64,000 nt of DNA, taken from Aureimonas sp. AU20 (lineage in GTDB: Bacteria; Pseudomonadota; Alphaproteobacteria; Rhizobiales; Rhizobiaceae). Below, in pieces: positions 5,886-28,017 of this stretch (position 1 is the stretch's first letter; every line of letters starts with the position of its first letter). The DNA is taken from the NCBI RefSeq assembly GCF_001442755.1, contig NZ_CP006367.1:186001-250000 (forward strand). Direction: 5' to 3'. Position numbers and translations under genes: made by a program. The notes beneath the pieces are model-generated. The model did not search any database, was not told the DNA's origin, and saw nothing but the letters and a program-made list of their open reading frames with translations.

Positions 5886-6317
5886 ATGCTGACCGTTTCG
5901 GCCATCGCCCATGTCGCCGTCCGCATCAAGGATATCGACCGAACCCTCGACTTCTACGTGCGCGGCCTCGGCTTCCGGGAGATGCTCCGCCTCGACCGCG
6001 ACGGGCGCCTGTGGCTCGTCTACCTGCGCGTCACCGACGAGCAATTCCTCGAAATCTTCCCGGAAGGCGTCGGCGAGCGCGCGGCCGAGCGCGAGGCGAT
6101 CGGCTACAACCACCTCTGCCTCCAGGTACCCTCGATCGACGGGGCGCTGCGCGAGCTGGAGGCGGCTGGCATCGAGCCGATCCGCCCGAAGGTGCTGGGC
6201 GCCGACGGCAACTGGCAGGCCTGGATCGAGGACCCCGACGGCCACCGGATCGAGCTGATGGAGATGGCGGAGAAGTCGATGCAGGCACAGGCCATCGCAC
6301 GCCTGCGGCAGGGCTGA
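5886..6317 (+). CDS. VOC (glyoxalase / bleomycin resistance / dioxygenase) family protein
   Basis: The 143-residue protein has the paired beta-alpha-beta-beta-beta modules of the vicinal-oxygen-chelate superfamily: [21 protein letters not shown] at the N-terminus and [24 protein letters not shown] in the second half. H9, the histidine of NHLC and a late glutamate are candidate metal ligands. Family members isomerise, epimerise or cleave small substrates around a divalent metal. GGGAGGA nine bases upstream supports the ATG. It is the first gene of the plus-strand operon and, given the enzymes behind it, may act as an isomerase or epimerase in sugar-acid breakdown; that role is inferred from context only. 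Confidence 0.85.
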
Positions 6318-6322
6318 GCGCC

Positions 6323-7459
6323 GTGGCTCGTATCAGCTACCTGACGGATGTCGACTTCGGCGCAGGCAAGGTCGCCACGCTGCCCGCAGCGCTTCGCGAA
6401 GTCGGCATCATTGCCCCTCTCCTCGTGTCGGACCGGGGCCTCGAGGCGAGCGGCCTTCTCGGCCGCATCCAGACACTGATGCCGGACCGCACGATCCTCT
6501 TTCTCGATACGCCAGCCAACCCGACGGAGGGTGCGGTCGATGCCGCGCTCGCCGTCTACCGGCAGGCGGGCTGCGACGGGATCGTGGCGCTCGGCGGCGG
6601 CTCGCCGATCGATCTCGCCAAGGGCGTGGCGCTTCTTGCGACGCACGAGGGGCGGCTCGCGGACTTCGCGGCAATCTACGGCGGCGGCGCGCGCATCACC
6701 GGGACGGTCGCCCCCGTCGTCGCCATTCCGACCACGGCCGGAACGGGTGCTGAGGTCGGCCGCGCCGCCCTCCTGACGCTCGGGGACCATCGCAAGCTCG
6801 GTATCGTCAGCCCTCGCCTCATCCCGCGCCGGGCGATCTGCGACCCGGAGCTGACGCTCGGCCTGCCTCCGAATCTCACCGCCGCCACGGGGCTCGACGC
6901 CCTGTCGCACTGTATCGAGACCTTTCTGTCGCCACGCCTGAACACGGTCGCCGACGCGATCGCGCTGGACGGCGCCGGGCGCCTTTGGCAGCACCTGCCG
7001 CGCGCGGTGGCTGAGGGCGGGGACATCGTGGCCCGCAGCGAGGTGATGCTGGGCGCGCTGCACGGCGGCCTGTCGTTCCAGAAGGGTCTCGGCGCGGTGC
7101 ATGCACTCAGCCACGCGCTCGGCGGACTGCCGGAGCCGCGCCTCCATCACGGTACGCTGAACGCCCTCCTTCTGCCTCCCGTGCTGCGCTTCAACGCGCC
7201 CGCCGTGCCGGAGCGCATGGTGCGCTTGCGGCAGGCCATGGGCCTGACGGCGGACGCCGATCTCGCTGCGGCGGTCGAGGCGCTGAACCGTTCGCTCGGA
7301 CTTCCCCACAGCCTGTCGGCGCTGGGCGTTAGGCGCGACATGTTCGGCTGGGTGGTGGAGCGGGCGCTGGCCGACCACAGCCATCCCACCAACCCGCGTG
7401 CGGCGACCGCCTCGGACTACCGCCAGATGCTGGACGAGGCGATGGGAGACCGGCCATGA
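6323..7459 (+). CDS. Iron-containing (type III) alcohol dehydrogenase family protein, maleylacetate reductase-like
   Basis: The 378-residue product reads from a GTG at 6323, five bases after the VOC stop. It shows the NAD(P)-binding GGGSPID motif (91-97), the PTTAGTGAE segment, and metal ligands D192 and H196 (LDALSH), H260/H264 (VHALSH) and H276 (HHG), all as expected for group III alcohol dehydrogenases. Such enzymes interconvert an alcohol and a carbonyl, or reduce maleylacetate. The length and the HALGG segment look closer to maleylacetate reductase and lactaldehyde-type reductases than to butanol dehydrogenases. Its stop overlaps the next gene as ATGA. Confidence 0.87.
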
Positions 7460-8616
7460 AGATCACGGGGCTGAAGACCTTCGTCGCCAACGTGTCGCGA
7501 ACCAACTTCGTGTTCGTGAAGATCTACACCGACGACGGGATCGAAGGCGTCGGCGAGGCGACGCTGGAATGGAAGACGCGCACGGTCGTGGCCGCGATCG
7601 AGGAGCTGGAGCGCGTCCTCGTCGGGCGCGACCCCTTCGCCGTGGATGCGATCGTGGAGCAGCTTCACCGCGACAGCTACTGGCGCACCGGCGCCGTGTT
7701 TCGTACCGCGCTCGGCGGCATCGAGGCAGCCCTTCTCGACATCAAGGGCAAGGCGCTCGGCGTGCCCGTCTTCGAGCTCATCGGCGGCAAGTATCGCGAG
7801 CGCGTCAGCTGCTACGCCAACCACTGGTTCTTCGGCTCGGTAACGCCCGAGGACCATGCCCAAAAGGCGAAGGCGGCGGTCGCGATGGGCTACCGCGCCC
7901 TGAAATGGGACCCGTTCGATACGGCCGACCTCCAGATGGACCGGCGCCAGCGCCACGCCACGATCGCGATCGTGGAAGCGGTGCGCGCGGCGGTCGGAGC
8001 CGACATCGACCTGATGCTCGACGTCCACGGACGGCTCGACGTGCCGACCGCGATCGCGATGTGCCGGGCGCTCGCCCCCTTCGACCTCACCTGGATCGAG
8101 GAGCCGACGCCCCCTGAGAGCATCGACGCGCTGGCCGAGGTGCGCGCGCACAGCCCCGTGCCGATCGCAGCGGGCGAACGCTTCTTCGAGCCCGCGCGCT
8201 TTCAGGAGGCGCTCGCCAAGCGTGCGGTCGACATCCTCCAGCCCGACGTCTCGCATGTCGGCGGGCTCGGCGAGACCAAGCGCATCGCCCACAACGCCCA
8301 CACCCACCTCATCCCGGTCGCGCCGCACAATCCGGTCGGCCCGGTGATGAACGCGATGACGCTCCACGTCGCGGTGGCGATCCCCAACATGCTGGTCTTC
8401 GAGACCGTGTCGGTGGACGTGCCGTGGCGGCGCGAGCTGGTGCGCGAAACGCTGCGCTTCGAGGACGGGCACCTTCTGGCGCCGACTGCGCCGGGGCTCG
8501 GCGTCGAGCTGATCGAGGAGGCCTGCGCGCGCTTCCCATACGAGGCGACCAACGTGCCGCTCTTCGACGGCTCGATGAACACGACCGGCGTGGCGACCGG
8601 CGACAAGACCTTCTAG
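7456..8616 (+). CDS. Enolase-superfamily sugar-acid dehydratase, galactonate dehydratase-like
   Basis: The 386-residue protein carries K150 (ALKWDPF), D189 and H191 (LDVHGR), E215 (WIEEP), E241 (AGERFF) and H291 (PHNPVGP). The D-x-H on the third strand plus the histidine at the end of the seventh is the catalytic pattern of the galactonate/gluconate dehydratase-type mandelate racemase subgroup (known). It would remove water from an aldonate-type acid to give a 2-keto-3-deoxy acid, using magnesium. It is coupled to the dehydrogenase by ATGA and is clearly different in sequence from the paralogue at 3765-4961, so the island has two distinct steps or two substrates of this chemistry. Confidence 0.9.
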
Positions 8617-8641
8617 GCGATGGGGTTCGGGAGGCGGCGGC

Positions 8642-9823
8642 ATGACACCATCCCTTCTCGTTCGCGGTGGGCGCGTGATCGACCCGGCATCGGGCTTCGA
8701 CGCGGCGACGGATATCCTGGTGCGGGACGGCAGGATCGCCGCCATCGCGCCCGACCTCGCAGCGGAGGAACGGGCCGACGTCCGCGTGGTCGAGGCTGCC
8801 GGCGCGCTGGTCGTGCCGGGCCTCGTCGACCTCCACACCCACGCCTACTGGGGCGGCACGCAGCTCGGCGTCAACGCCGACAAGATCGGGCCGCGCACCG
8901 GCGTCACCACCTAGGTGGACTGCGGCAGCAGCGGTGCGGCGACGCTGGAGGGCTTCCTCTGGCACGTCGTTCGGCCCAGCCGAGTCCGCATCCTTCCCAT
9001 GATCAACCTGTCCTATATCGGCCTCACCGCGGCCGGCCACCTGTCGATGGATGTGGGCGAGCTGCACGACTGGCGCTTTGCGGACCTGCGCGAGATCGAT
9101 CGCGTGCATGAGGCGTTCGGACCCGAGATCCACGGCGTGAAGCTGCGCGCCAGCAACAACGCCTGCGGCGCGAACGGTCCGGTCGTTCTGCCGCTGGCGC
9201 GCGAGGCGGCCGACCGCCTCGGCGTGCCCCTCATGATCCATGTCGGCACCGCGCCGCCGACCATCGACGAGGTGCTGCCCTTCCTGCGCGAGGGCGACAT
9301 CCTCGCCCACATCTACAATGCCAGCGCGGGCGGCTCGGTGCTCGACGGCTCGGGCCGCTTGCGCCCAGCGGTGCGCGAGGCCATGGCGCGCGGCGTGCGC
9401 ATGGATGTGGGTCATGGCGGCTCGAGCTTCTCGTTCCGCATCGCCGAGCGCACCATGGACCAGGGTCTCCTACCCGACGCCATCAGCTCCGACCTCCATG
9501 CCCACAACATCGATGGCCCGGCCGGCAGCCTGCCGGAGGTGATGGCGAAGTTCCTCGCGCTCGGGCTCCCGCTGATCGAGGTCCTGCGCCTTGCCACCGT
9601 CTCGCCGGCAGCCGTCATCCGCCGCCCCGACCTCGGGCGGCTCCAGGTCGGTGGCGAGGCCGATCTGGCGGTGTTCCGCCTGGAAGAGCGCGGCGTCGAT
9701 CTGGTGGACTGCGAGGGCGCCGTGCGGCGCGGCTCCTCGAGCCTTCACAACGTCCTGACCGTCTGCCGCGGCCGGGTGCTGGAAAGCGTCGAGGACGGCC
9801 GCACTGAGGGACGCCGCCACTGA
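8642..9823 (+). pseudogene. Amidohydrolase/deacetylase family metallohydrolase interrupted by an in-frame TAG
   Basis: The reading frame 8642-9823 would encode one protein of 393 codons but holds a TAG at 8912-8914, codon 91. Before it lie the dihydroorotase-like N-terminus and the metal motif DLHTHAYWGG; after it lie VDCGSSGA, a metal lysine region (HGVKLRAS), IHVG, AHIYNA, DVGHGG and SSDLHAH. The stop sits in GVTT-stop-VDCGSSG, where related proteins have a hydrophobic residue, so a single TGG to TAG change is the simplest cause. The 3' part could start at the GTG right after the stop (302 residues) but would lack the first metal histidines. The family includes N-acyl amino acid and N-acetyl sugar deacylases and lactonases. 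Confidence 0.8.
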
Positions 9824-13931: not shown

Positions 13932-14999
13932 ATGGGTTCGGTATCGATCCGCGACGCCCGCAAGAGCTACGGGGCGCTGGAGGTGCTGCATGGGGTCTCG
14001 GTGGAGATCGCCGACGGCGAGTTCGTCGTGCTCGTCGGCCCCTCGGGCTGCGGAAAGTCGACGCTCCTGCGCATGCTCGCCGGGCTGGAGTCCATCTCGG
14101 GCGGCGAGATCGCGATCGACGGGCGCGTCGTCAACGCGCTGGCGCCCAAGGAGCGCGACATCGCCATGGTGTTCCAGTCTTACGCGCTCTACCCGCACAT
14201 GACGGTCGCCGAGAACATGGGTTTCTCGCTCAAGCTCGGCCGCCGGCCGCGCGAGGAGATCCAGGATCGCGTCGGCACGGCGGCGCGCACGCTCAGCCTC
14301 GACGCTCTCCTCGACCGCCAGCCGCGCCAGTTGTCGGGCGGCCAGCGCCAGCGCGTCGCCATGGGGCGGGCCATGGTGCGGGCGCCCGCCGTGTTCCTGT
14401 TCGACGAGCCGCTCTCCAACCTCGACGCCAAGCTGCGCGTCCAGATGCGGGCCGAGATCAAGCAGAACCACCAGCGCCTACGCACCACCACGGTCTACGT
14501 CACGCACGACCAGATCGAGGCCATGACCATGGCCGACCGCATCGTGGTCATGAACGGCGGCCGCGTCGAGCAGATCGGAACGCCGCTCGAACTCTACGAG
14601 CGCCCGGCCAACCTCTTCGTCGCCGGCTTCATCGGCTCACCCGCCATGAACCTCCTGCCTGGGCGGCTCGGTGAGGGCGCGCTGACAGCCGAGGACGGCA
14701 CGCGCATTCCGATCGCGGGCACTTCTCCTGCCCATAGAGGGGCGGCGATCCTGGGCGCCCGGCCCGAGCATATCGTACTCGATCCCGGCGGGGTGCCGGC
14801 CGAGGTGCTGGTGGTCGAGCCGACGGGCGCCGACACGCATGTCACGCTGCGCCTGGCCGGTCAGCCGGTCGTCGGCACGTTCCGCGAGCGCATCACAGCC
14901 CGGCCCGGCGACCAGATGCCCGTGCGGCTCGATCCCGAGCGCCTCCATCTTTTCGACGCCGAGACGGGCCGGCGCCTCGAACAGGGAGGCCGCGCCTAG
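13932..14999 (+). CDS. Sugar ABC transporter ATP-binding protein, UgpC/MalK type
   Basis: The 355-residue ATPase has Walker [10 protein letters not shown] (36-44), Q-loop [10 protein letters not shown], signature LSGGQ (134-138), Walker B FLFDEP (155-160), a switch histidine (YVTHD) and a C-terminal OB-type regulatory domain that includes GARPEHI. This layout is the MalK/UgpC group, which drives sugar importers. GGGAGGA seven bases upstream supports the start. It completes the transporter with 10082, 11353 and 12228. Confidence 0.93.
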
Positions 15000-15001
15000 T
15001 C

Positions 15002-15760
15002 ATGCCCGCCACCTATCCCGACCTTCGCGACCGCACCGTCCTCGTCACCGGCGGGGCATCGGGCATCGGCGAGGCCATCGTGCGGGCCTTTGCGGCTCAA
15101 CGCGCGCGTGTCGGCTTCGTCGACCTCGATGCAGTTGCCGGCGAGCGGCTGGCGTCCGCGCTTTCGGCAGACGGTGGACGGCTCCATTTCGTGCCCGCCG
15201 ACCTTCGGGACATCGCGGCGCTGCAGCGAGCGGTCGGCGAGATCCGCGACACGCTCGGCCCCGTCACGGTGCTTGTCAACAACGCTGCCAACGATGAGCG
15301 CCACCCGACCCCGACCGTCACGCCGGACTATTTTGACGACCGCATCGCGGTGAATCTGCGCCACCAGTTCTTTGCCGCGCAGGCCGTCCTGCCCGACATG
15401 GAGCGGGCAGGCGGCGGCTCGATCGTCTGCATGAGCTCGATCTCCTGGATGGCGGGCTTCGGCGGCATGGCGCTCTACACAGCGTCGAAATCCGCCGTGC
15501 TCGGCCTCGTGCGCTCGCTCGCCCGCGACTACGGACCGGCGGGCGTGCGCGTTAACGCCGTCTCGCCCGGCTGGATCATGACCGAGCGCCAGCTCGCGCG
15601 CTGGCTGACGCCCGAGGCCGACGCCATGCGCGAGGAACGCCAGGCACTGAAGCGCCGGCTCGTGCCCGACGACATCGCTCGCCTCGTCCTGTTTCCCGCC
15701 TCCGAGGAGGCCAGCGCCATCACCGCGCAGAACCACGTCGCCGACGGCGGCTGGGTCTGA
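15002..15760 (+). CDS. Short-chain dehydrogenase/reductase (SDR)
   Basis: A classical SDR of 252 residues: the cofactor motif TGGASGIG at 16-23, N93-N94-A95, catalytic S145/S146, and Y159-x3-K163. D41 after the second strand suggests NAD preference. The C-terminal segment differs a little from the usual SDR ending (FPASEEASAITAQNHVADGGWV). It starts two bases after the ATPase stop. It probably oxidises a sugar, aldonate or lactone in the same pathway. Confidence 0.9.
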   Translation: MPATYPDLRDRTVLVTGGASGIGEAIVRAFAAQRARVGFVDLDAVAGERLASALSADGGRLHFVPADLRDIAALQRAVGEIRDTLGPVTVLVNNAANDERHPTPTVTPDYFDDRIAVNLRHQFFAAQAVLPDMERAGGGSIVCMSSISWMAGFGGMALYTASKSAVLGLVRSLARDYGPAGVRVNAVSPGWIMTERQLARWLTPEADAMREERQALKRRLVPDDIARLVLFPASEEASAITAQNHVADGGWV

Positions 15761-15798
15761 CGCTCGTTTTCTTTCGGCCTGCCTTCGAGGTGCATTCC

Positions 15799-16545
15799 AT
15801 GCAGTCACCATCCGACATCCAGCCGATCATCCGTCCACCGCGCGCTTGGTGCGACGCGCTCGCCGCGATCGGTACGGCGACCTGCAGCAGCGAGCTCAGC
15901 CTCATGGGCATCCGCGATGCGCAAATTCACGGGCCGCGCCCGTTGAAGCTCGGTCGCTCGGTGGCGGGCCCCGCGCTCACGCTCCAGATGATGCCGAAGC
16001 GCGAGGATCTCTACGGCTCGAACGAGTACGAGAACCCGGAGGTCCAGCTCCATCGCCACGTTCTGTATCCTGCGGAGGCCGGCGACATGGTGGTGGTTGA
16101 CGCCCGCGGCGACATGGCGAGCGGCATCTTCGGCGAGATGATGCTGACCTTCCTCGCGGGCCGCGGCGGGTCGGGCGTGGTGGTGGACGGCTGCATCCGC
16201 GATTCAGCCAAGGCGCGCGCGCTCGACCTCGGCATCTGGGTGAAGGGCGTGACGCCGAACTACCATGCGCAGACGAACCTCATCCCCTTCGCCGTCAACG
16301 TGCCGGTCGCCTGCGGCGGGGCGCTCGTCATGCCGGGCGACATCATCGTGGCCGACGACGACGGCGTAGTGGTGGTGCCAGTCGCCATGGCCGAGCAGCT
16401 GATTAAGGGCGCGAGCCAGCACGTCGAGTGGGAGGAGTTCGCACGCCTGCGCCTGTCGCAGGGCGGGGACCTGCGCAAGTACTATCCCCTAACCGAGGCC
16501 GTGCAGGACGAGTATCTTGCTTGGCGTGCCGCCAACCAGGGTTGA
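15799..16545 (+). CDS. RraA family protein, probable hydroxy-keto acid aldolase or lyase
   Basis: The 248-residue protein belongs to the RraA/HMG-aldolase family: the body shows GDMVVVDARGD near 95-105, FGEMMLT (111-117) and VDGCIRDS (129-136), where R134 and D135 correspond to the substrate- and metal-binding pair of 4-hydroxy-4-methyl-2-oxoglutarate aldolase. Such enzymes split 4-hydroxy-2-keto acids to pyruvate plus a keto acid, or decarboxylate. Family members named RraA inhibit RNase E, but the catabolic surroundings favour an enzyme. CGAGG eight bases upstream favours ATG 15799 over GTG 15790. Confidence 0.85.
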   Translation: MQSPSDIQPIIRPPRAWCDALAAIGTATCSSELSLMGIRDAQIHGPRPLKLGRSVAGPALTLQMMPKREDLYGSNEYENPEVQLHRHVLYPAEAGDMVVVDARGDMASGIFGEMMLTFLAGRGGSGVVVDGCIRDSAKARALDLGIWVKGVTPNYHAQTNLIPFAVNVPVACGGALVMPGDIIVADDDGVVVVPVAMAEQLIKGASQHVEWEEFARLRLSQGGDLRKYYPLTEAVQDEYLAWRAANQG

Positions 16546-17586: not shown

Positions 17587-18075
17587 ATGACGCCGACCCT
17601 CGACGAACTGCGCCAGGAAGAGGATAGCCTCCACCTGTCTCACTTCGACTACGCGACGGCTTGGGAGCTGGGTTCGTCGCTACGCGCTAAGGCGGTGGAG
17701 GCCGGCCTGCCGGTCGGCATCGAGGTGTTTCACGGCAGCGCTCCGGTCTTCCTGTCGCTTCTGCCGGGCTCCACACCCGACAATGTCGACTGGCTCCGGC
17801 GCAAGCGCGCCGTCGCCCTGCGCTTCCACCACAGTTCGTTGTACATGCGCCGCCTCTGCGAAGCTAAGGGCGTCGAGTTCGCCATGCGCTACCATCTGCC
17901 GGCAAGCGACTTCGTCGCAAGCGGCGGAGCGGTCCCGATCACGGTTCGGGGAAGCGGCGTGGTCGGCGTGGTCACGGTCAGCGGCCTTCCCGACACGGAA
18001 GACCACGCGATGGTCGTAGCGGCCCTGCGCGCCTTGAACGAGGGTCATTCGAGGATCCGTCCTCTCGTTTCATGA
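17587..18075 (+). CDS. Haem-degrading domain (HbpS-like, UPF0303/DUF336) protein
   Basis: The 162-residue protein matches the GlcG/HbpS-type haem-binding fold, and within it the UPF0303 branch, by its pattern SHFDYATAWELGSSLRAKAVEAGLPV, an internal LRRKRAVALRFHHSSLYMR block and the GAVPITVRG..VGVVTVSGLP.EDH ending. Members sit in many catabolic operons without a settled function; some bind haem or cobalamin, others may bind small acids. GAGGA seven bases upstream supports ATG 17587. It is the last intact gene of the island. Confidence 0.8.
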   Translation: MTPTLDELRQEEDSLHLSHFDYATAWELGSSLRAKAVEAGLPVGIEVFHGSAPVFLSLLPGSTPDNVDWLRRKRAVALRFHHSSLYMRRLCEAKGVEFAMRYHLPASDFVASGGAVPITVRGSGVVGVVTVSGLPDTEDHAMVVAALRALNEGHSRIRPLVS

Positions 18076-18299
18076 CAATCGTCCAACGGAAGGGCGACGC
18101 AGGCTTTCCCTCAGAATTTACCGGCCGTTCGCCCGGACTGGGTGGATCAGACCACCGCTTTCGTTCCAACTAGAGAACGAAGGGCCTCTCGCGCATCAAG
18201 ATCGGCGCATATGCGTACTGCACCTTCCTCGGCAGCCTCGCGAGGTACTTGATGCTTCCACAGAGCGACCCTGCCAGACGGCAAGTGGCATCCGTCCAC
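18076..18299. other. Non-coding gap, possible degraded sequence
   Basis: No supported gene. A minus-strand frame at 18147-18332 (61 codons, with a plausible composition and the run WKHQVPREAAEEGAVRI) could be the tail of a lost gene, but I recognise no family and it runs into the direct repeat. Confidence 0.4.
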
Positions 18300-18380
18300 A
18301 GGAGTGGTACACACGACCTTGGAAAGCAACATTCAAGCTGTTGTTTTTGTTAGGGTGGCATCAGAAAAGGGGCAATCCTT
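18300..18380 (+). repeat. Right copy of the 81-bp imperfect direct repeat
   Basis: Gap-free partner of 3663-3743, 64 of 81 identical by hand count, in the same orientation. It lies about 100 bases before the integrase remnant and is followed at once by a dyad (18382-18411). The copy-specific differences are clustered in the middle, with both ends conserved. Confidence 0.7.
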
Positions 18381-18381
18381 T

Positions 18382-18411
18382 CCTGAGCAACAATTCCTCT
18401 GATTGCTCAGG
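18382..18411. repeat. Inverted repeat next to the right direct repeat
   Basis: CCTGAGCAA (18382-18390) and TTGCTCAGG (18403-18411) are perfect 9-base arms with a 12-base spacer. It abuts the direct repeat and precedes the integrase remnant, so it could be a recombinase-binding or control site. No T-run follows, so it is unlikely to be a terminator. Confidence 0.55.
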
Positions 18412-18477
18412 GAAGCGAAAGACTTAAGCGATTACAAGGGATTGCGTGGAGCGACCTGTACAACAGGACTGCACAAC

Positions 18478-18805
18478 ATGCCCCTTGCGATGGCCCGTCC
18501 GATGAAGCTTCCCGGTACTAAAAACCAGCAGTTCGTCCAGCGCATCCCGGCCGACGTAAAGGCGAAGGTGCGGGGGGATGAAGCTAGCAATCCCGCTCCG
18601 GGCCCAGACCGTTGCTATGACGGACTCGCAAACCCTCCCCGACGTTAGCCTTTCGTTTCGGACGACCGATCCCGCAGACCCTAGGAAGGCTCGCGGGCGC
18701 AACCGTGCGCGTCACGAGATGCGCTCCAACATCAAGGGTGCGGCAGGGGTGGTGCGCTACGACGTCAGCCAGAGCCTACCGCAAGGGAGCCTGACCCAAT
18801 TATGA
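18478..18805 (+). pseudogene. N-terminal remnant of a tyrosine recombinase (phage-type integrase), frameshifted
   Basis: The ATG at 18478 opens MPLAMARPMKLPGTKNQQFVQRIPADVKAKV (split here as an N-terminal arm), which resembles the N-terminal domain of integrases of the type MxRPxxLxGs.nyyfRkRvPaDvk. After the G-run 18572-18577 the frame shifts; removing one G joins it to MKLAIPLRA...VSLSFRTTDPADPRKARGR, the next integrase segment (SLRTrDPaeAk). Nothing of the core or catalytic domain (R, H-x-x-R, Y) remains after 18805. It marks a former mobile element at the edge of the island. Confidence 0.7.
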
Positions 18806-18886
18806 ATGTCGAGAGGTAGGGTCGTATCAGAAGGATACCCATAGAGTGCGTTCGTGGTAAGCGCACGAGGCGCGTCATAGCGCTGC

Positions 18887-19189
18887 TCAGACACAAATCC
18901 GAAGATCGTCACGCGGGCGGGCGCCAATTACTCCGCCAAGCGCCGGCACGATGCGGTGCTCGCAAATGCGGGCGATCGAGAAGTCGCCCCTGTCCACTTC
19001 GCGGAAGATGATACGCGAAATCGGAAAACCGGCGATGACAAAGAAGATGTCGACACCCACGAGCCCGCCTGGCAAACGGGCAGCGTGGAACAAAACTGCG
19101 GCCAAGACGGCAATGCAGCGCAACCCGTGGATGTTGGGCCTGTAAGCACGCGGGTCGGCTATGCCCTGTGCCTTCGTAGCTACGATCAT
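18887..19189 (-). pseudogene. Acyltransferase-3 (OafA/YrhL-type) N-terminal fragment
   Basis: About 70 residues match the first part of membrane acyltransferase-3 proteins: YRPNIHGLRCIAVLAAVLFH, then GGLVGVDIFFVIAGF and FSIARICEHRI. Here the catalytic histidine of the RAIAV..FH motif is present. After HRI the sequence diverges and stops at 18887, where a full protein would continue for 300 residues or more. These enzymes acylate sugars of surface polymers. The fragment points away from the intact ligase-carrier-acyltransferase gene at 19405. Confidence 0.7.
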
Positions 19190-19404
19190 TGGCGGAGCGA
19201 GTTCGTAAGCGCGGTCAACTGCACGGCCCGGGGGTTTCTCGCATTATATGGACGCACCCGTTCGGCGTGTCGCCTCTCTCGCAATTGCCGCAAGAGAGGT
19301 ATGCAATGCAATATGTGCTATAGATGATTCAGTAAGCTATCCAGATCCGCGCCATCCTCCACAAAGCCCGGTCTAGCTACATACCAACGCATCGGAGTGT
19401 CCCG

Positions 19405-21876
19405 TTGGACCGTCTAGCAGGAAACATCCCGCCTCGTTCGATCGCCGTGACGGCAGTAATTGCAAAGTCTTCTGTAGACTTCGTGGAGGCGGCGTTCGAA
19501 CTCTATGAAAAGCGCCGACCTTTCTTGATCGTTTCGGCAAGCGGAGTAAGCGAAAAGCGGCCTGGTCTTGAGCTTGTCGATGTGATCGAGCCGGACGACC
19601 GGACGGGTTGGGTATCCGGCTTGCGAAGATTCCCTGGCGGCTCCGATATAGCGCAGGTGACCTTCACCTCGGGTACGACGGGCATGCCGAAGGGCATCTG
19701 TTTAACCTACGAGGCCCTCAACGACACGGTAGAGCGCCTCAATACAGTGATGTCCCTCGACGGTTCCGTGCGCGAGTATGTCGGGGTTCCGCCGAACTAC
19801 TCCTTCGGGTTGGGACGGTTCCGAGCTTGTGCGGCCGTTGGCGGTCAGGCCTTCATCCCCCCACGCGGCTTCGATGTCGGTGAAATCGCCGCCATGCTTC
19901 GGCGTGAAGAAATCAACGCGCTTTCGGCCGTACCGACGCTGCTGCGAATTCTCCTCAAGAATGCCGACGCGATCGGATCGTCCGGGCGCAACATGCGGTG
20001 GATCGAAATTGGCAGTCAGTACATGTCGCGCTCGGAAAAAGAGGCGTTGAAGGCGCTCTTTCCCAATGCGCGCATCGTGCAACATTACGGTTTGACCGAA
20101 GCGTCCCGCACGACTTTCCTCGATTTGACCGCCACGGATGGTGAGGGGCTGGAATCGGTCGGCCGGCCCGTCGGACAGACCCGCGTCGAGATCGCCGAGG
20201 ACGGACGTATCCGCATCTGCGGGCCGCATGTGGCAAAATTCGCTATGGCCGACGGAGCCTTTTCGCCCCTCACGGATGCGGACGGCTGGCTGACCACCAA
20301 CGATCTCGGCGAGATGCGGGACGGCAATCTTTTCTACCAAGGCCGAGCCGACGATCTCATCAATTGCGGCGGCATCAAGATCTCGCCCGAACTGATCGAA
20401 GCCGAGCTGCGCGAGGCGCTTACCCCCTCGCCCGCCGTCTCGCTCGCGCGCATTCCCGATCCGTTGCGCGGGGATGGAATGCTTCTGGCCCATCTGCCGG
20501 GTCCTCATGACGAGGCTGCGTTGCGCGCGGCCACCGAAGCGGTGCTGCGCAAGCGAGGGCTCGTGGTCGGCAATGCGCTGAAGCTAACGCAGGTCGAACG
20601 CTTTCCCGTCACGGCGACAGGCAAGGTGCAGCGGCGCATTCTCGGCGAGAACTTCGTTCGGGAGGAAACCGATCGTTCGCTGCATGACCAGATCGATCGG
20701 GCTATCGCGCCGCAGGACGCCGACACGATACGGGCCCTGTTCGAGGCGGAGTTCAATCGCCCATGTATCCGCGACGAAGACAGCTTCGTTTCGCTCGGGG
20801 GGGATTCTCTGACTTTCGTGGTGATCAGCGCGGCGATCGAGGACCGGTTCGGTAGCTTGCCCAAAGGCTGGGAAGTCCTGCCGCTTGCGAACCTTGAGGC
20901 GCTGTTTCCCAAACCCAGGGAACAGAGTGGCGGGGTCCTCGCCATGCGCTCGATCAGCATGGAAACCGCGATGCGCGCGATCGCGACCCTTATGGTGGTG
21001 GCACACCATACCTTCAAGGCGGAGGTCGGTGCTGGCGTAGACATTCTGATCATGTTGGCTGGGCTCAGCATGGCGCGCGTCCAACGCGCGCGGCTCGTAT
21101 CGTCGAAGCGATGGACGATCCTGCGCGATGTCTTCCTCAAGATCGTGCTGCCCTACTACCTCGTTCTCGTCGCCTTCAGCCTGCGCCGGATGGATGGGAG
21201 CGTCGCGGAGTTCCTGCTGGTCAGCAATTTTGTCGGGCGTGTCGGTAGCTTGCTGACGCCCTTTTGGTTCATTGAGGCTTACATCCAGAGCATTCTGGTT
21301 CTGATTTTATTTGCCTGCATACCAGCGGTCAGAACATTTATTCGCGACCAGCCTGCAAAATTCGGTTTCGCCTTTCTCGCGGCGGCCATTGGCATCAAGA
21401 TCATTGCAATTCTTACGTTCGATCACGACGAACTTCTGAACCGGACGCCCGACCAATTCATCTATCTCTTCGCAATTGGCTGGTGCATATACTTCGCCAA
21501 CACATGGACGCGCACTGCGCTGGTTGTGGGTATCGCCGCCTTTGCGGCATTTCTCAACTATGCTTCGGTGCCTTGGTGGGGCGGTTTTGGGGGTGAAATG
21601 CGTGGTGCTTATAAGTTGGCGGCCGTGATGCTCCTCGTTGCCGTTCCAGTTCTGGTGATGCCGGACTTGGTAAGACGGTTATTCTTGGAAATCAGCTTTG
21701 CAAGTTTTGCTATATATATCTCGCATTCTCTGACCATTCCGCGTCTGCGCGAGGTTATGCCACCAACCATCCTAACAATCGTGTTGGTCGCCATCGGGAT
21801 TGCCATCTCCCACACCATCAAGCTGGCGCTACCCATAGCGAAGACTTATGCAAATCGTCGCGTGCAACAGCGTTGA
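19405..21876 (+). CDS. Fused adenylate-forming ligase, carrier domain and acyltransferase-3 membrane domain
   Basis: An 823-residue protein with three modules. Residues 1-420 are an AMP-forming ligase: FTSGTTGMPKG (87-97), HYGLTEAS (227-234), TTND (297-300), YQGRADDLINCGGIKISP (311-328) and the catalytic lysine K407 in TATGKVQRR. Residues about 435-505 are a carrier domain with the phosphopantetheine serine S468 in LGGDSL. Residues about 512-815 are an acyltransferase-3 domain with roughly ten membrane segments and HH534-535 in the AMRAIA..VVAHH motif. The inferred job is to activate an acid, load it on the carrier and transfer it to a glycan or lipid across the membrane, as the separate Dlt proteins do for D-alanine. 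The TTG start has GGAG seven bases upstream; the ligase N-terminus is short and may have been trimmed. Confidence 0.85.
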   Translation: MDRLAGNIPPRSIAVTAVIAKSSVDFVEAAFELYEKRRPFLIVSASGVSEKRPGLELVDVIEPDDRTGWVSGLRRFPGGSDIAQVTFTSGTTGMPKGICLTYEALNDTVERLNTVMSLDGSVREYVGVPPNYSFGLGRFRACAAVGGQAFIPPRGFDVGEIAAMLRREEINALSAVPTLLRILLKNADAIGSSGRNMRWIEIGSQYMSRSEKEALKALFPNARIVQHYGLTEASRTTFLDLTATDGEGLESVGRPVGQTRVEIAEDGRIRICGPHVAKFAMADGAFSPLTDADGWLTTNDLGEMRDGNLFYQGRADDLINCGGIKISPELIEAELREALTPSPAVSLARIPDPLRGDGMLLAHLPGPHDEAALRAATEAVLRKRGLVVGNALKLTQVERFPVTATGKVQRRILGENFVREETDRSLHDQIDRAIAPQDADTIRALFEAEFNRPCIRDEDSFVSLGGDSLTFVVISAAIEDRFGSLPKGWEVLPLANLEALFPKPREQSGGVLAMRSISMETAMRAIATLMVVAHHTFKAEVGAGVDILIMLAGLSMARVQRARLVSSKRWTILRDVFLKIVLPYYLVLVAFSLRRMDGSVAEFLLVSNFVGRVGSLLTPFWFIEAYIQSILVLILFACIPAVRTFIRDQPAKFGFAFLAAAIGIKIIAILTFDHDELLNRTPDQFIYLFAIGWCIYFANTWTRTALVVGIAAFAAFLNYASVPWWGGFGGEMRGAYKLAAVMLLVAVPVLVMPDLVRRLFLEISFASFAIYISHSLTIPRLREVMPPTILTIVLVAIGIAISHTIKLALPIAKTYANRRVQQR

Positions 21877-22363
21877 GGATGTGCCTGTCTCAAACAAGGT
21901 TCCAGCTTTGAGCCTTACCAAGCTCACTGGTTCTTCTGATGCTTAAGGTCTGAACGGGTAACCGGGCGGCCCTAAGCGAGGGCTTTTCCCTTTGCACAAT
22001 TCCGCAAACTCGGTGGCTGTAAATTTAGCCGCCGATGACAAGCTTGCCCACGCGCTACGCGTTACCAAAGCAGATCGTATAGGTCGCGCCGAAAAACCAG
22101 TCGGCTTTAACTGGCAGTTTGCTGCGATCGCTCGTTTCATTTGGATGATGTCTTGAAAATTTAAGCGCCATTGTTCGCGGAACCATCTTTTCTACAGTTC
22201 GGTGCGCTCTGCCAGTAGGGCGGTGCACCTCATAGACATCTTCGGAAACGTCCAAACGAAGTCTTTTCCGGCCGCTGCGACCAACAGATCGCAGCGGGGA
22301 ACGTAGCATCAGCGCCCTACGAAGACGCGCCATCGCGCCCAGATGCCGACCCTAAGCCCGGCG
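21877..22363. other. Intergenic stretch without a supported gene
   Basis: About 490 bases between two genes that converge here. Short frames exist on the minus strand (21943-22140 and 22055-22333), but their composition is poor, they overlap each other and I recognise no family. I see no tRNA-like fold or clear terminator. Confidence 0.5.
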
Positions 22364-22756
22364 TCAGCGCTCCGATAGCGTCGGCGTTTCAGCGCCGGCC
22401 AAGTCTTCGCGGTCGTGCAGATAGTCCGAAAGCGCCGTGCGCCGGCCTTCCCAGGCATCCGACATCACAGCCTGAATCTGGCGCGCACGCTCGGCCCAGG
22501 CGGGGGAGCGGAAGTGGGGGGGCTCGCGCACGGTCACGTCGTCCACCCGATTGCGCACCAACCGGCAGCCCAAAACTTCCAGGCCGAGCACGAAGTCTTC
22601 CACCGACAGGTCGGACGAGACGGGATAGTCGGCAATATTGACCTCGCGCACCGGAAACAGCCGGCCGCGCAGGATCACGGGCACGAAGCCCGGCGAGGTC
22701 TGGCAGATGCGAAGGACGACGGCGGTTTCAGGATCGGACAGGAAGGAATGGCTCAT
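22364..22756 (-). CDS. Hypothetical protein coupled to the HWE kinase
   Basis: A 130-residue soluble acidic protein that I do not recognise. Visible features are a strand-rich N-terminal half (AVVLRICQTSPGFVPVILRGRLFPV) and a helical C-terminal half (AERARQIQAVMSDAWEGRR). It starts three bases after the kinase stop, so it is co-translated with it. It has no receiver-domain aspartate pattern, so it is not an ordinary response regulator. A role as partner or modulator of the kinase is possible from position alone. Confidence 0.7.
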   Translation of the reverse strand: MSHSFLSDPETAVVLRICQTSPGFVPVILRGRLFPVREVNIADYPVSSDLSVEDFVLGLEVLGCRLVRNRVDDVTVREPPHFRSPAWAERARQIQAVMSDAWEGRRTALSDYLHDREDLAGAETPTLSER

Positions 22757-22759
22757 GGG

Positions 22760-25700
22760 TCACGTCTCCTCGTCCATCTCGAGTTCGCTCAAGGGTGCGG
22801 TGATGCGGCATCGAAGGCCGCCCGGATCGTATGCGAGATCGACCGCGCCGCCCGCCGCGCCCGACAGGCCCATGCCGACCAGCCGCGTGCCGAAGCCCTT
22901 GCGGCTGGGCGGCACGACAGGCGGACCGCCCGTCTCGCACCAATCGAACTCCAGCATGGGCGAAAGGCCGCTGGCGGACGGAGTCACCGACCAGCGGATC
23001 GTCACCCGTCCCTCGGGAACCGAGAGAGCGCCGTATTTGACCGCATTGGTGGACAGCTCGTGGGCGATCAGCGCCAGCGCCATCGCGGCCTTGGGGCCGA
23101 TCAGCACGCTCGGCCCCTCTAAGTCGATCCGCCCGCCGGGATCGTGGGCGGACACCGCGCCGCGCACGATGGCCTCGACCGATCCTGAATCGTGCTGGCC
23201 AATCAGGAGGATCTCGTGCGCGTGCGACAGCGCCTGGATGCGCTGGGAGAGCGTGACGCGCGCGGTCTCGATGTCGGTGGCCGAGCGCAACGTCTGCGTC
23301 GCGATCGACTGCACAACGGCCAGCGTGTTCTTCAATCGGTGAGAGAGTTCGCGCGCCAGAATGCGCTGCTGCGCTTCGGCGCGCTTGCGATCCTCGATCT
23401 CGCTGGCGCAGACCACCGCGCCGCGCAGCCGCCCGGTGGCGTCGCGGATGGCTTCGCCCACGACCTCGATCCAGACCCGGCTGCCGTCCGGGCGCTCCAG
23501 CTGCATTTCCAACGTGGCGCGCTCGGCCTCCCCTTTGAGGATGCGCGGCAGCGGGCAGGCGGACGGGTCGATGGTCCGCCCCTCGCCGTCATAGGCGAGG
23601 AAGAGATGGTCGCCGCCCGGCGCCAGGACGCTGGCGGCCGTGCGGCCGAGGATGGTTTCCATGCGCCGATTGCTGGCGATGACGCGGCTCGTCTTCGCCT
23701 CTGCCAGAAGAACGCCCAGCGGTAGGGCCTGGACCAGCGTAAGAAGGCGCCGCTCGTTGTCGCGCAGCAGCGTTTCGACGCGCCCGCGCTCGATGGCGGC
23801 GCGAATGCGCGCGGCGGCTTCGCTGACGAAGGCGAGTTCCTCCTCCGTCCAACGTCGCGGCCGCGTGTCGCCGACCTCCAGCACGGCCACGAGCCGGCCG
23901 CCTTCGGTCACGGGATGCCGGATGGAGGCGCGCAGGTCCCCCTCCCCTGCCCCGGATTCGCTGGCGTCTTCCACGGCGATCGTCTGGCCCTGACCGAGCC
24001 TCGCCTCGAGAGTGAGGCCCGACGCCTCTCCGCCGGATTGCGAGCTGGCCGGCGCTTCGCCCCGGCGCCATTCGTGGCGCAGGGAGGGCGTGCCGTCTGG
24101 AGTTACGCCGCAATAGGCGGCCTGCGCCACCTGCAGCGCGCCGCCGACCAGTTCGGCCGCGCCGCGAAGCAAGATGGCCTCGTCGTCATGGCGTAGGAGA
24201 AGGTCGCCGAGCCGGGCCAGCGCGTCACGTCGCGCTTCGGACTTGGCGCGGTCGGTCACCTCGACAAACAGGGCCGTGAACCCGTCCTGCCCCGCGGGCT
24301 GCACGACGCCCTCAAAAGAGCGGCCCATGGCCTCCACCGTTCGCAGGAAGCGCAGCGGCTTCTTTTCCTCGACGGCGGCGGCGGCGCCCTTCACCCATTC
24401 CGGGCCGAGATCTGGAAACAGCTCCCGCACCGTGCGGCCGATCACGGCCTCAGCGGACAGGCCGGTCAACTCGCACCAGGCGCGGTTCACCGCCTCGTAG
24501 CGCCAGTCCACCACCGCGCCCGCCTCGTCGCGCAGGAGCCGGCCGAGCACGAAGCCTTCCTGCAGTTCCTCGAACAGCTCGCGCCACTTGCGCTCGCTGG
24601 CGCGCAGGCTCTCGTCGGCATCCATCCGCTCGCGCATGATCGACAGGAAGCGCGCCACGGTGGCGAAGAAGGCGACCGTCTCCTCGTCGAACGGCTTCGC
24701 CTCGTGCCGGCTGAAGGACAGGACGCCCTTGGCGACGCCCTGGCTGAGGATCGGGAAGCCGGCATAGCTGTCGAAGCGCATTTCGCGCGCGATGGCGTGG
24801 CGCGGCTCGTCGCCATCGAGAAGGCTGGAGAGAATCAGCGGTTCTCCGGTTTGCGCCACGATGCCGCAGAGCGGCCATTCCACCGAGGTCTCGGTCAGGC
24901 GCCGGCGCGTGTCCTCGTCCAGGCCGATCTCATGGGTGAGAAAGAGGTGGCAGCCATCGGGCGCGATGTCGAACAAGCAGCATTCGTCGAAGCCGATGAT
25001 CTCGGCCCCCGCCTGCAGAATGGGCCGCAGCCCGTCGCCCGTGGTCGGGGCCGAAAGCAGCGCCGCCGAGACTTCCGCCAGAAGCGCCAGTCGGTGCTCG
25101 CGCTGGCGCTCGGCCGTGCGGTCGCGCAGGATCAGCAGCGAGCCGATGGGCTCGCCGGTTTCGGACACGAGCGGGCGCGTTTCGCTGGAGGCAAGGAAGC
25201 GCGAGCCGTCCCGGCGCGGGCGCCAGCCCTCGCGCAGCGCGTGCCCCTCGCTGCGGGCGCGGGCAAGATCCTGCGCCGGCACGCCGTTCGCCCGGTCCTC
25301 GCGGGTGAACAACCGATCCGCCGAGGCGCCGAGCATCTCGTCCTCGCCCCAGCCGAGAATCGCCTCCGCGCCCCGGCTCCAGGCGGTGATGCGCCCGTCC
25401 CGGTCGAGCGAGAGGATCGCATGGTCCAGCGCGCTGTCGAGAATCATCCGATGATGCCGGTCGACCTCGCGCTTCTGCAGAAGCGCGCGGTCGCGGTCGG
25501 CCACCGCCCGGCGCAGTTCGAGCTGGCTCATGACCTGCCGCGACAAGGCGACGAGCCCTTCGAGCTCGCCCGTGCTCAGGGCGGCGGGCCGGGCCACGTG
25601 GTCCAGCACGCAGAGCAAGCCGAGCACCTGGCCGGCGGGCGTCACCAGCGGCGCGCCGGCATAGAATCGCAGATGCGGCTCGCCGGTGACCAGCGTGTTT

Positions 25701-26053
25701 TGGCGCGTGCGGGGGTCGAGGGTGAGGTCGGGGATGATCAGCGGCTCGGTCTGCGACAGGACATGCCGGCAGACGGACTGCTCGATCGGCGTCTGGCAGG
25801 GGTCGAAGCCGGAGCGCGCCTTGAACCATTGCCGGTCCTTGTCCACAAGGCTGACCAGCGCGACAGGAGCGCGGCAGAGCGTGCGCGCCAGGAGCACGAT
25901 GTCCTCGAAGCCCTGCTCGGGCTGTGTGTCGAGAATGCCGTATTCGGCAAGCGCCGCCAGCCGCGCGGCCTCCGCTGCGCGCCCGTCTTCCCCAGCGCCC
26001 CGGTCTTTCCCGGCGCCCAGGTCTTCCCCAGCCCCTGCCGGCTCGTCTCTCAC
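22760..26053 (-). CDS. HWE-family sensor histidine kinase with alternating GAF and PAS domains
   Basis: A 1097-residue protein without membrane segments. Domains in order: GAF about 36-180, PAS 203-315, GAF 322-475, PAS 486-600, GAF 608-755, PAS 766-885, HWE kinase 896-1090. The kinase has H905 (RELSHRLKN), the N-box HELSTNAVKYGALS (998-1011) and W1038-x-E1040 followed by GFGTRLV, which define the HWE family common in Hyphomicrobiales. The first GAF resembles those of bacteriophytochrome-like sensors but no bilin cysteine could be assigned. The frame stays open far upstream to 27079, opposite a HAD gene; GTG 26053 with AGGGGG upstream is the best start. No response regulator is adjacent. Confidence 0.88.
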   Translation of the reverse strand: MRDEPAGAGEDLGAGKDRGAGEDGRAAEAARLAALAEYGILDTQPEQGFEDIVLLARTLCRAPVALVSLVDKDRQWFKARSGFDPCQTPIEQSVCRHVLSQTEPLIIPDLTLDPRTRQNTLVTGEPHLRFYAGAPLVTPAGQVLGLLCVLDHVARPAALSTGELEGLVALSRQVMSQLELRRAVADRDRALLQKREVDRHHRMILDSALDHAILSLDRDGRITAWSRGAEAILGWGEDEMLGASADRLFTREDRANGVPAQDLARARSEGHALREGWRPRRDGSRFLASSETRPLVSETGEPIGSLLILRDRTAERQREHRLALLAEVSAALLSAPTTGDGLRPILQAGAEIIGFDECCLFDIAPDGCHLFLTHEIGLDEDTRRRLTETSVEWPLCGIVAQTGEPLILSSLLDGDEPRHAIAREMRFDSYAGFPILSQGVAKGVLSFSRHEAKPFDEETVAFFATVARFLSIMRERMDADESLRASERKWRELFEELQEGFVLGRLLRDEAGAVVDWRYEAVNRAWCELTGLSAEAVIGRTVRELFPDLGPEWVKGAAAAVEEKKPLRFLRTVEAMGRSFEGVVQPAGQDGFTALFVEVTDRAKSEARRDALARLGDLLLRHDDEAILLRGAAELVGGALQVAQAAYCGVTPDGTPSLRHEWRRGEAPASSQSGGEASGLTLEARLGQGQTIAVEDASESGAGEGDLRASIRHPVTEGGRLVAVLEVGDTRPRRWTEEELAFVSEAAARIRAAIERGRVETLLRDNERRLLTLVQALPLGVLLAEAKTSRVIASNRRMETILGRTAASVLAPGGDHLFLAYDGEGRTIDPSACPLPRILKGEAERATLEMQLERPDGSRVWIEVVGEAIRDATGRLRGAVVCASEIEDRKRAEAQQRILARELSHRLKNTLAVVQSIATQTLRSATDIETARVTLSQRIQALSHAHEILLIGQHDSGSVEAIVRGAVSAHDPGGRIDLEGPSVLIGPKAAMALALIAHELSTNAVKYGALSVPEGRVTIRWSVTPSASGLSPMLEFDWCETGGPPVVPPSRKGFGTRLVGMGLSGAAGGAVDLAYDPGGLRCRITAPLSELEMDEET

Positions 26054-26254
26054 GGCGCACGCCCCCTGCTGCCCGAAGGCCTCTGCGCGTTCGTAACTTC
26101 CTTTTCGCGCGATGGAAAGTCGCTTCGCGGCCACAGGGGCCGGCTTCGGTATCTCCGGTTGTACTGGGGAGACACTGGCGAGACAAGCTCTGTCGGGTCG
26201 GTCAGGCGACCCTACAAAAGATGGACGAGCCAACCCATCAAAGAGGCCTCGACC

Positions 26255-26929
26255 ATGCGCATCGAACCCGCCTTCCTCTTCGATCTCGACGGCACGCTGG
26301 TGGACAGCGTCTATCATCACGTTCTCGCCTGGCAGGAAGCGCTGGACGCGGAGGGCATCGACCTTTCGGTCTGGCGCATCCATCGCAAGATCGGCATGAG
26401 CGGCGGCTTGTTCACCAACCAGTTGCTGCGTGAGACCGAGACCGACATCAGCCCCGAACTCCTGGAGCGCCTGCGCCAGCGGCACGCGGCGGCCTATGGC
26501 CGGCAGGCCGATCGCATCCGGCCGCTGCCCGGCGCGCGCGCCCTCCTGCAGACGCTGACCGACGCCGGCATCAAATGGGCGATCGCCACCAGCGGACGCA
26601 TGGAAACGGCCTCGCACAATCTCGCAGCCCTCGGCGTCGATCCGGCCAAGGTCCCCGTCATCACGCGCGATCTGGTGAAATACGCCAAACCCGACCCGGA
26701 CCTTTTCCTTGCCGCAGCCGAGCGTCTCGACACGCCGATCGAGACGGCCATGGTGATCGGCGATTCCATTTGGGACATGCTCGCCGCGCAGCGCTGCCGG
26801 GCGCTCGGCGTCGGCCTCCTGTGCGGGGGTTATGGGGCGGGCGAGTTGGAGCGCGCGGGCGCTTACCGCGTCTACGAGGACCCCGCCGACATGCTCGCCC
26901 ATCTCGACGAGGTCGGCGGTCGTCTCTAG
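26255..26929 (+). CDS. HAD family hydrolase (phosphatase-like)
   Basis: The 224-residue protein has motif I FDLDGTLVDS (D10, D12), motif II in WAIATSG, the motif III lysine in YAKPDPDLF and motif IV IGDSIWDM. An alpha-helical cap lies between motifs I and II, which puts it among subfamily I (phosphoglycolate phosphatase / beta-phosphoglucomutase-like) enzymes that dephosphorylate small metabolites. AAAGAGG eight bases upstream decides the ATG; the long open frame upstream from 24704 is antisense to the kinase and is not coding. It is transcribed divergently from the kinase. Confidence 0.9.
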   Translation: MRIEPAFLFDLDGTLVDSVYHHVLAWQEALDAEGIDLSVWRIHRKIGMSGGLFTNQLLRETETDISPELLERLRQRHAAAYGRQADRIRPLPGARALLQTLTDAGIKWAIATSGRMETASHNLAALGVDPAKVPVITRDLVKYAKPDPDLFLAAAERLDTPIETAMVIGDSIWDMLAAQRCRALGVGLLCGGYGAGELERAGAYRVYEDPADMLAHLDEVGGRL

Positions 26930-27078
26930 CGGCGCGTTCGGGGCGGCTGGGGCTTCCTCGCTTTTCCCGCGCGCCGACGCTGCGGGCATTGAATCTGCCG
27001 AGGGCTTTAGAGCCGAGGCTGGGACTGGCAGTTCCGTTGCGGCAACGCCGCCTTTTCGCCTCTGCGCCGCGCCGGGCA

Positions 27079-28017
27079 TCAGCCGCGCTCGCCGCGCAGG
27101 AAGGCGGCGATGTCGTCCATCAGCCTGTCGGCGCGTTTAATTCGCCCGTTCATCTGGAGAAAGGCGTGGATCATGCCGTCGTATCGCCGGTGCGTCAGCG
27201 GCACGCCGCAGGCGTCTAAGCGTCGGCCGAAGGCCTCTCCCTCGTCGCGGAGCGGGTCGGCTTCGCATGTCGCGAGGAAGCAGCAAGGGAGGCCGGCGAG
27301 ATCATCGGCAAGCAGCGGCGAGGCGGTGGGAGTGAGCCGGTCGGCATGGCGCGGCACGGACTGGTCGGCCTCGTAGCGCAGCGAATCGCGCGTCATGATC
27401 CGCCCTTCGTTCTCACGCAGCGAGGGCCATGCGCGCGTGTCGCGAAGATCGGTGTTGGGATAAAGGAGAACCTGCGCCTCCGGCAGCGGGCTCGCGCCCT
27501 CGCGGCGTAGAGCCCGCGCGGTGGAAGCGGCATAGAGGCCGCCGATGGAATCTCCGCCGATCGCCCAGCCAGCCGCTGGCAGGCCGAGCCCGCCGCCGAC
27601 GAGAAACCGCGCGGCATCGAGGCAATCCTCTTGCTGGCCGGGATAGCGCGTTTCGGGTGCCAGACGGTAGCCGACCGAGGCGACCACGCGTCCCGTGCGC
27701 TCGGCCAGCGCCAAGAGCGGCGCTTCGTGCGTGTCCAGCGACCCGGCGATCGCGCCCCCGCCGTGGAACCAAAGGAGGAGCTTCTCCCCATTGGCCGGGC
27801 GGTAGAGCCGGAGGGGAATGGCGTGCCCGCCGCGCCCGGGCGCCTCCGTCTCTTCAATGCGGACCGAGGCCGGCGGCGGGGCGGAGAAGCGGGCCAGCGA
27901 GGCCGTGTCGGATCGCGCCTGGGCCAGTTTCTCGGCGGCGTTGCGCGGGTCGGGGCGCCCCTTCGCAGCCCGCTCGATCTCGCGCAGCACCGCCTCGGCC
28001 TCGGGGTCGATCCTCAT
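27079..28017 (-). CDS. Alpha/beta hydrolase, hormone-sensitive lipase family esterase
   Basis: The 312-residue protein has the oxyanion motif HGGG (85-88), nucleophile S157 in GDSIGG, an acid in CEADPLRDEG and a histidine in GMIHAF near the C-terminus. This is the family IV (HSL) lipolytic arrangement, usually cytoplasmic carboxylesterases for short-chain esters. It stands where rpsO and pnp usually follow truB in related genomes, so the conserved block ends at the terminator between the two. Natural substrate unknown. Confidence 0.9.
   Translation of the reverse strand: MRIDPEAEAVLREIERAAKGRPDPRNAAEKLAQARSDTASLARFSAPPPASVRIEETEAPGRGGHAIPLRLYRPANGEKLLLWFHGGGAIAGSLDTHEAPLLALAERTGRVVASVGYRLAPETRYPGQQEDCLDAARFLVGGGLGLPAAGWAIGGDSIGGLYAASTARALRREGASPLPEAQVLLYPNTDLRDTRAWPSLRENEGRIMTRDSLRYEADQSVPRHADRLTPTASPLLADDLAGLPCCFLATCEADPLRDEGEAFGRRLDACGVPLTHRRYDGMIHAFLQMNGRIKRADRLMDDIAAFLRGERG

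Follow-up and report, generated by a model that had tools for sequence, protein, structure and literature searches.

The 64,000-nucleotide stretch of the Aureimonas sp. AU20 genome analyzed here (contig NZ_CP006367.1, positions 186,001 to 250,000; hereafter the window, G000:C1:186001-250000 of the 5.21-Mb genome) encodes an 823-residue protein in which an adenylating ligase, a phosphopantetheine carrier and a membrane acyltransferase-3 domain are joined in one chain. With moderate confidence, we favor the view that this protein is a self-loading, carrier-fed acyltransferase, an acyltransferase-3 counterpart of the Dlt system that acylates an exported glycan. This view is based on the domains, the conserved catalytic residues, fold models, two ligase lineages among the relatives, the absence of an RXXR motif and one split version of the protein; direct donation by the carrier, the direction of transfer, the acceptor and the class of acid are the parts of it that we infer. 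No published description of the three-domain fusion was found in our searches of the open-access literature.

Domain architecture

The gene is an open reading frame with a TTG start and no internal stops (Table 1). Three Pfam families were identified in the protein, each above its curated cut-off, in the order AMP-binding (PF00501; residues 77-268, E 2.4e-27), PP-binding (PF00550; E 9.8e-7, 29.4 bits against a cut-off of 20.8) and Acyl_transf_3 (PF01757; E 4.3e-10, 39.6 bits against a cut-off of 31). No NCBIfam family reached its cut-off among the 25 of 94 matches listed, and so these databases provide no name for the fusion as a whole. To assess conservation we used an alignment of 51 rows (A5), comprising the window protein and 50 of 67 sequences prepared from 80 loci; it leaves out L074 (cut short), L080, L081, L083 and L086 (other C-termini) and 12 more removed by thinning. 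There was no variation in A5 at K407, S468, R524 or H535. These results bear out a preliminary description, made from the sequence alone, which had proposed an intact one-chain protein with these three domains and had named K407 and S468; of the two histidines that it listed, H534 and H535, the latter is the motif histidine of R-X10-H. The AlphaFold model had a mean pLDDT of 88.7, but as its pTM was only 0.60 the relative placing of the domains is unsure. The source genome has two phosphopantetheinyl-transferase matches, whose open frames are 154 and 227 residues long.

In Foldseek, the whole model matched the McyG A-PCP didomain (4r0m) best. Like this protein and the EntE-EntB fusion (3rg2), adenylation-carrier didomains of nonribosomal peptide synthetases, the window protein has a ligase followed by a carrier; it differs in having no condensation domain among its Pfam matches, a membrane acyltransferase in the releasing position, and glycine in place of the amino-acid aspartate. 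Epsilon-poly-lysine synthetase is likewise an adenylation-carrier-membrane chain, but polymerizes lysine via tandem domains resembling condensation domains and not via an acyltransferase-3 domain. In the Dlt system the activating ligase is DltA. The carrier DltC feeds the MBOAT transferase DltB, these being separate proteins with D-alanine as cargo, according to a passage of PMC12148441. The window protein shares with Dlt activation, phosphopantetheine carriage and, presumably, transmembrane transfer fed by the carrier rather than by coenzyme A (CoA), but is a single chain with a PF01757 transferase and a ligase lacking the amino-acid aspartate. With the acyltransferase-3 proteins OafB, OatA, ExoZ and OpgC it shares PF01757, R-X10-H and ten helices, although its membrane domain is fused behind a ligase and a carrier and lacks RXXR in the third transmembrane helix (TMH3). 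The acyltransferase-3 fusions named in passages of PMC9558356 and PMC9833829 are to SGNH and to alanine racemase, and further ones occur in Eukarya.

The ligase domain and its likely cargo

The ligase residues T88-S89-G90, Y228-G229-T231-E232, D300 and K407 were each conserved in 51/51 proteins of A5; we take them to represent the P-loop, YGxTE, ribose aspartate and A10 lysine motifs, K407 presumably being the catalytic lysine. The claim that the ligase motifs are complete stands for these residues and does not extend to the fold, as the N-terminal ANL subdomain is incomplete. Roughly 35-65 residues are absent, with residue 12-13 of the model aligning with residue 46-77 of solved single-domain ligases. 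Local damage was considered as the cause and rejected, because relatives in other genera start alike: among 25 window-type relatives with a usable start (L082 and L084 were excluded as incomplete), the open frame continues upstream of the match for no more than 20 residues in 17, and for 27 to 129 residues in the remaining 8. The closed frames of these 17 indicate that the short N-terminus is probably not local damage. A decaying gene, truncated in its ligase, surrounded by debris and encoding an inactive protein, would account for the absent residues, for the fragmentary surroundings and for a frame-broken relative in Neorhizobium galegae. We consider this very improbable in view of the common starting position in other genera, the intact catalytic residues, the full reading frame and the good fold model.

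In amino-acid ligases an aspartate grips the alpha-amino group. The corresponding position, as aligned with LgrA, is G135 in the window protein and glycine in 51/51 proteins, which disfavors an alpha-amino acid and favors an acid without an alpha-amino group as the cargo. Decoration of the surface, as first proposed, is still a likely role, with alpha-amino acids now disfavored among the candidate cargoes. The same glycine argues against a Dlt-like aminoacylation, in which an amino acid would be loaded and then put on a surface polymer as Dlt does with D-alanine. The DltA models (54 of 559.85 bits) were also far under their cut-off, although this was true of all 25 models listed, and we regard such a reaction as improbable.

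The membrane domain lacks RXXR

The R-X10-H motif in TMH1 is a described feature of acyltransferase-3 proteins (in a passage of PMC9833829). A second motif, RXXR at the cytoplasmic face of TMH3, has been modeled as gripping a phosphate of CoA and is highly, though not absolutely, conserved. It is missing from TMH3 of the window protein and was found by pattern in only 1/92 carrier proteins, there at another proline, vs. 24/33 ordinary acyltransferase-3 proteins. The 92 proteins are partly non-independent, as some genomes were taken twice, and include L083, which has a thioesterase and is the only one without R/K-X10-H, together with L080, L081, L084 and L086, which have another membrane domain. 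Eight of the 80 loci failed the membrane-motif pattern (L085, L087-L090, L100, L108, and L126); TMH1 of L001 was not located during the A5-stage motif count, although by eye L001 shows both motifs. By bit score, the fused membrane domains match one another far better than they match 34 ordinary acyltransferase-3 proteins, a sample of 8 from the source genome and 26 from near relatives rather than from all bacteria. The absence of RXXR fits a phosphopantetheine carrier, rather than CoA, as the donor.

Since a fold search with the whole model returned ligases, the membrane domain was folded separately. The resulting model has the TmAT fold and resembles HGSNAT/GWT1. No MBOAT structure was among the 50 matches listed for it, which in itself excludes nothing, and no MBOAT family was found in the Pfam scan of the protein at E 0.01. 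MBOAT proteins, including DltB, are structurally distinct from TmAT according to a passage of PMC12423673. The earlier comparison with Dlt, made with the provision that the transferase belongs to another family than MBOAT, is thus upheld by the PF01757 assignment and the fold model.

A scattered family of modular proteins

We gathered relatives by a search of genomes, by tblastn against plasmids and by an alignment scan of named genomes. Among 121 genomes of the family, at least six other proteins match the ligase, carrier and membrane domains (from residue ~80) with 28-31% identity. When 398 genomes from the phylum were scanned with the carrier-membrane profile, at least eight in addition to the source had matches at E 1e-20; these all belong to the same class, and one is a stand-alone membrane domain. 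Both counts are lower bounds, as in most genomes at most eight and at most four candidates, respectively, were scored. Plasmid relatives, usually labeled "AMP-binding protein", include those of Novosphingobium resinovorum pSA1 (41% identity), Paracoccus zhejiangensis (38%, with that label) and N. galegae (37%), as well as more distant ones in Rhizobium, Sinorhizobium, Leisingera and Arthrobacter. In the N. galegae copy (L041, plasmid pNgVX, around 14001-16109) the broken frame is annotated as two genes; elsewhere there are intact relatives. The best 80 of 497 confirmed loci, which were retained from the scan of named genomes, cover two cyanobacteria, Hydrogenophaga, several Actinomycetota and further Alphaproteobacteria. 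The three-domain protein is therefore no one-off but a member of a scattered, widespread family; the genome-wide survey that the preliminary description had suggested also revealed the ligase-carrier unit with other C-termini and, in one genome, as a separate frame.

In a tree of the 51 ligases, those with a short N-terminus (short-N, 16, including the window protein) and a long one (long-N, 35) are divided by a very long branch with 100/100 support. The acyltransferase-3 tree does not part the two groups, requiring four changes between them, at least two of which are forced by its starred branches; its long branches (the window protein, L078, L102, L093, L139, and L127) make single placements unsure. 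Median scores over six queries were 35-60 bits between short-N and long-N ligases, and 94-122 bits between these and 22 plain ligases. As each lineage is nearer to plain ligases than to the other lineage, ligases have joined one carrier-transferase group, or been swapped, at least twice, and a single ligase origin for all the fused proteins was rejected on the tree and the bit scores. The window protein itself has a short-N ligase, 47-52% identical to those of its kin, and a membrane domain whose nearest counterpart is that of the long-N protein L091 (36%). We put at about even the prospect that these membrane domains form a separate acyltransferase-3 clade that is fed by a built-in carrier, has lost the CoA-phosphate grip and has had unrelated ligases attached to it at least twice.

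The C-terminal domains behind the short-N ligase-carrier unit are also interchangeable. The unit precedes a thioesterase in L083 (9989-12226, Methylophaga), a hexapeptide-repeat domain in L085 (9962-12058) and L089 (9974-12115; Cellvibrionaceae, Endobugula), a divergent membrane domain with acyltransferase-3 scores under the cut-off in L080 and L084, and a long membrane-like domain without any Pfam match in L081, L086, L088 and L090. The carriers of L085 and L089, at 20.2 bits, are just under the PF00550 cut-off of 20.8. The unrecognized membrane-like domain is possibly a further acyltransferase-3 branch, and the R-X10-H pattern is retained in the two that were looked at, L081 and L086.

Gene context of the relatives

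Glycan genes were counted up to about 10 kb on each side with queries from L077, L080 and L091, a locus being scored as positive if two or more kinds were present in the stretch. Among the 10 short-N loci whose C-termini were of another kind or unresolved, five were positive, vs. 0/20 control stretches of the source genome, one of which had a single kind; 5/8 positive loci lie outside the query sources. In L209 (G355), the most informative locus although not part of this count, a ligase-carrier frame (6295-8262) overlaps an acyltransferase-3 frame (8255-9271) in a different frame. Both adjoin genes for a priming sugar transferase, three glycosyltransferases and two sulfotransferases, and the carrier is visible as a GGDSL motif without a Pfam match. 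L209 is either a naturally split form of the protein or a fused gene that has undergone a frameshift; the two would look similar.

No partner gene common to unrelated loci was found in annotated plasmid records, clusters of open reading frames or the glycan count. Among close kin, the Sinorhizobium/Ensifer loci have one chromosomal neighborhood in common and several Rhizobium loci have YcaO/TfuA-type genes in common. In Rhizobium bangladeshense (L044, 11644-21435), for example, an AAA-type ATPase gene and YcaO-like/TfuA-like genes come after a long-N member, an arrangement that recurs in several related loci. The missing common partner would fit a single-module synthetase whose membrane domain adds the acyl group to a small secreted metabolite and not to a surface glycan. 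CmmA, MdmB and CarE act on antibiotics in this way, and antibiotic-modifying acyltransferase-3 proteins are described in passages of PMC9558356 and PMC9833829. We think such a role unlikely, as glycan genes adjoin both the split relative and several of the sister architectures and no biosynthetic cluster was recognized beside the gene, although no search was aimed at such clusters.

Several observations weigh against a carrier-fed glycan acyltransferase. Only 1/17 short-N loci and 2/53 long-N loci with the full ligase-carrier-acyltransferase-3 order (A-T-AT3) were glycan-positive, one in each group being a query source, and the same count found no glycan cluster in the window's own stretch. 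Two loci counted as A-T-AT3, L064 (29.9 bits) and L078 (15.6 bits), are under the PF01757 cut-off, and the model of the membrane domain alone had no Foldseek match below E 0.1. The other 9/33 ordinary acyltransferase-3 proteins also lack RXXR, so that its absence is no proof, and R524, likewise modeled on the 3'-phosphate of CoA, is retained. The 22 plain ligases had been pre-picked as good matches of the window protein, which favors short-N queries, although three long-N queries scored like the short-N ones despite this selection. Finally, a passage of the acyltransferase-3 review PMC9558356 favors CoA over acyl carrier protein as the donor for other members.

Proposed mechanism

For a carrier-fed acyltransferase, we envisage that in the cytoplasm the ligase domain would activate a carboxylic acid lacking an alpha-amino group, using ATP to form acyl-AMP, and that the acyl group would be loaded onto phosphopantetheine at S468. 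As a substitute for acyl-CoA, the thioester on this arm may then enter the pore of the acyltransferase-3 domain that follows in the chain. Transfer of the acyl group would take place near H535, and its acceptor would lie outside the membrane, a sugar residue in an exported glycan being the most likely candidate.

The window locus

The gene was found in 1/21 genomes of the genus and has a GC content of 59% (55% for the membrane domain) vs. 68% for the window, from which horizontal arrival, as previously suggested, appears to fit. About 1.5 kb of the left flank has a 91% match in two of the 21 genomes and the right flank a 70-85% match in two others, and no genus genome has both side by side among the matches listed. 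Between these two blocks, 18060-22370 is island-like, comprising degenerate coding fragments and the intact gene; to its right, 22763-27079 encodes a large HWE histidine kinase in which several GAF and PAS domains are present. An integrase remnant reported from the neighborhood was not substantiated, as it matched no Pfam family and its 29-residue core had no tblastn match in plasmids. The second acyltransferase-3 fragment is present only as a weak match (Table 1). Fourteen further PF01757 matches occur in the source genome, of which one pair (C1:2981480-2982417) looks split across two frames.

Table 1. Features of the acyltransferase gene and its surroundings, in window positions.
Feature	Position	Strand	Basis
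Degenerate fragment, ordinary acyltransferase-3 N-terminus, outside the system	18887-19189	-	PF01757, 16.6 bits (cut-off 31)
GGAG, likely ribosome-binding site, 7 nt 5' of TTG	19394-19397	+	Sequence reading
Whole gene, 823 residues, ligase - carrier - acyltransferase-3	19405-21876	+	Open reading frame, Pfam, AlphaFold model
ANL (adenylating) ligase domain, residues 13-422; first ~35-65 residues of the usual fold absent	19441-20670	+	
K407, ligase	20623-20625	+	51/51 in A5
Carrier (phosphopantetheine attachment) domain, residues 440-483	20722-20853	+	PF00550
S468, phosphopantetheine attachment serine in GGDSL	20806-20808	+	51/51
Acyltransferase-3 membrane domain, residues 522-802, with ten long helices that by eye are of membrane type	20968-21810	+	
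R524-X10-H535 motif of acyltransferase-3	20974-21009	+	Both residues 51/51

Implications

The acyltransferase-3 donors named in passages of PMC9558356 and PMC9833829 are acyl-CoA. If our interpretation is correct, the window protein and its relatives would represent an independently arisen acyltransferase-3 answer to DltB, and exported glycans could carry acids that have no CoA pool. A carrier-fed clade would allow a wider variety of acyl groups to reach the cell surface, and the modular relatives, in which one ligase-carrier unit is combined with varied C-terminal domains, suggest that donor and acceptor specificity are separable. As a one-chain system that itself attaches its cargo covalently, the protein would also be a compact test case for the passage of acyl groups across the membrane in the acyltransferase-3 fold.
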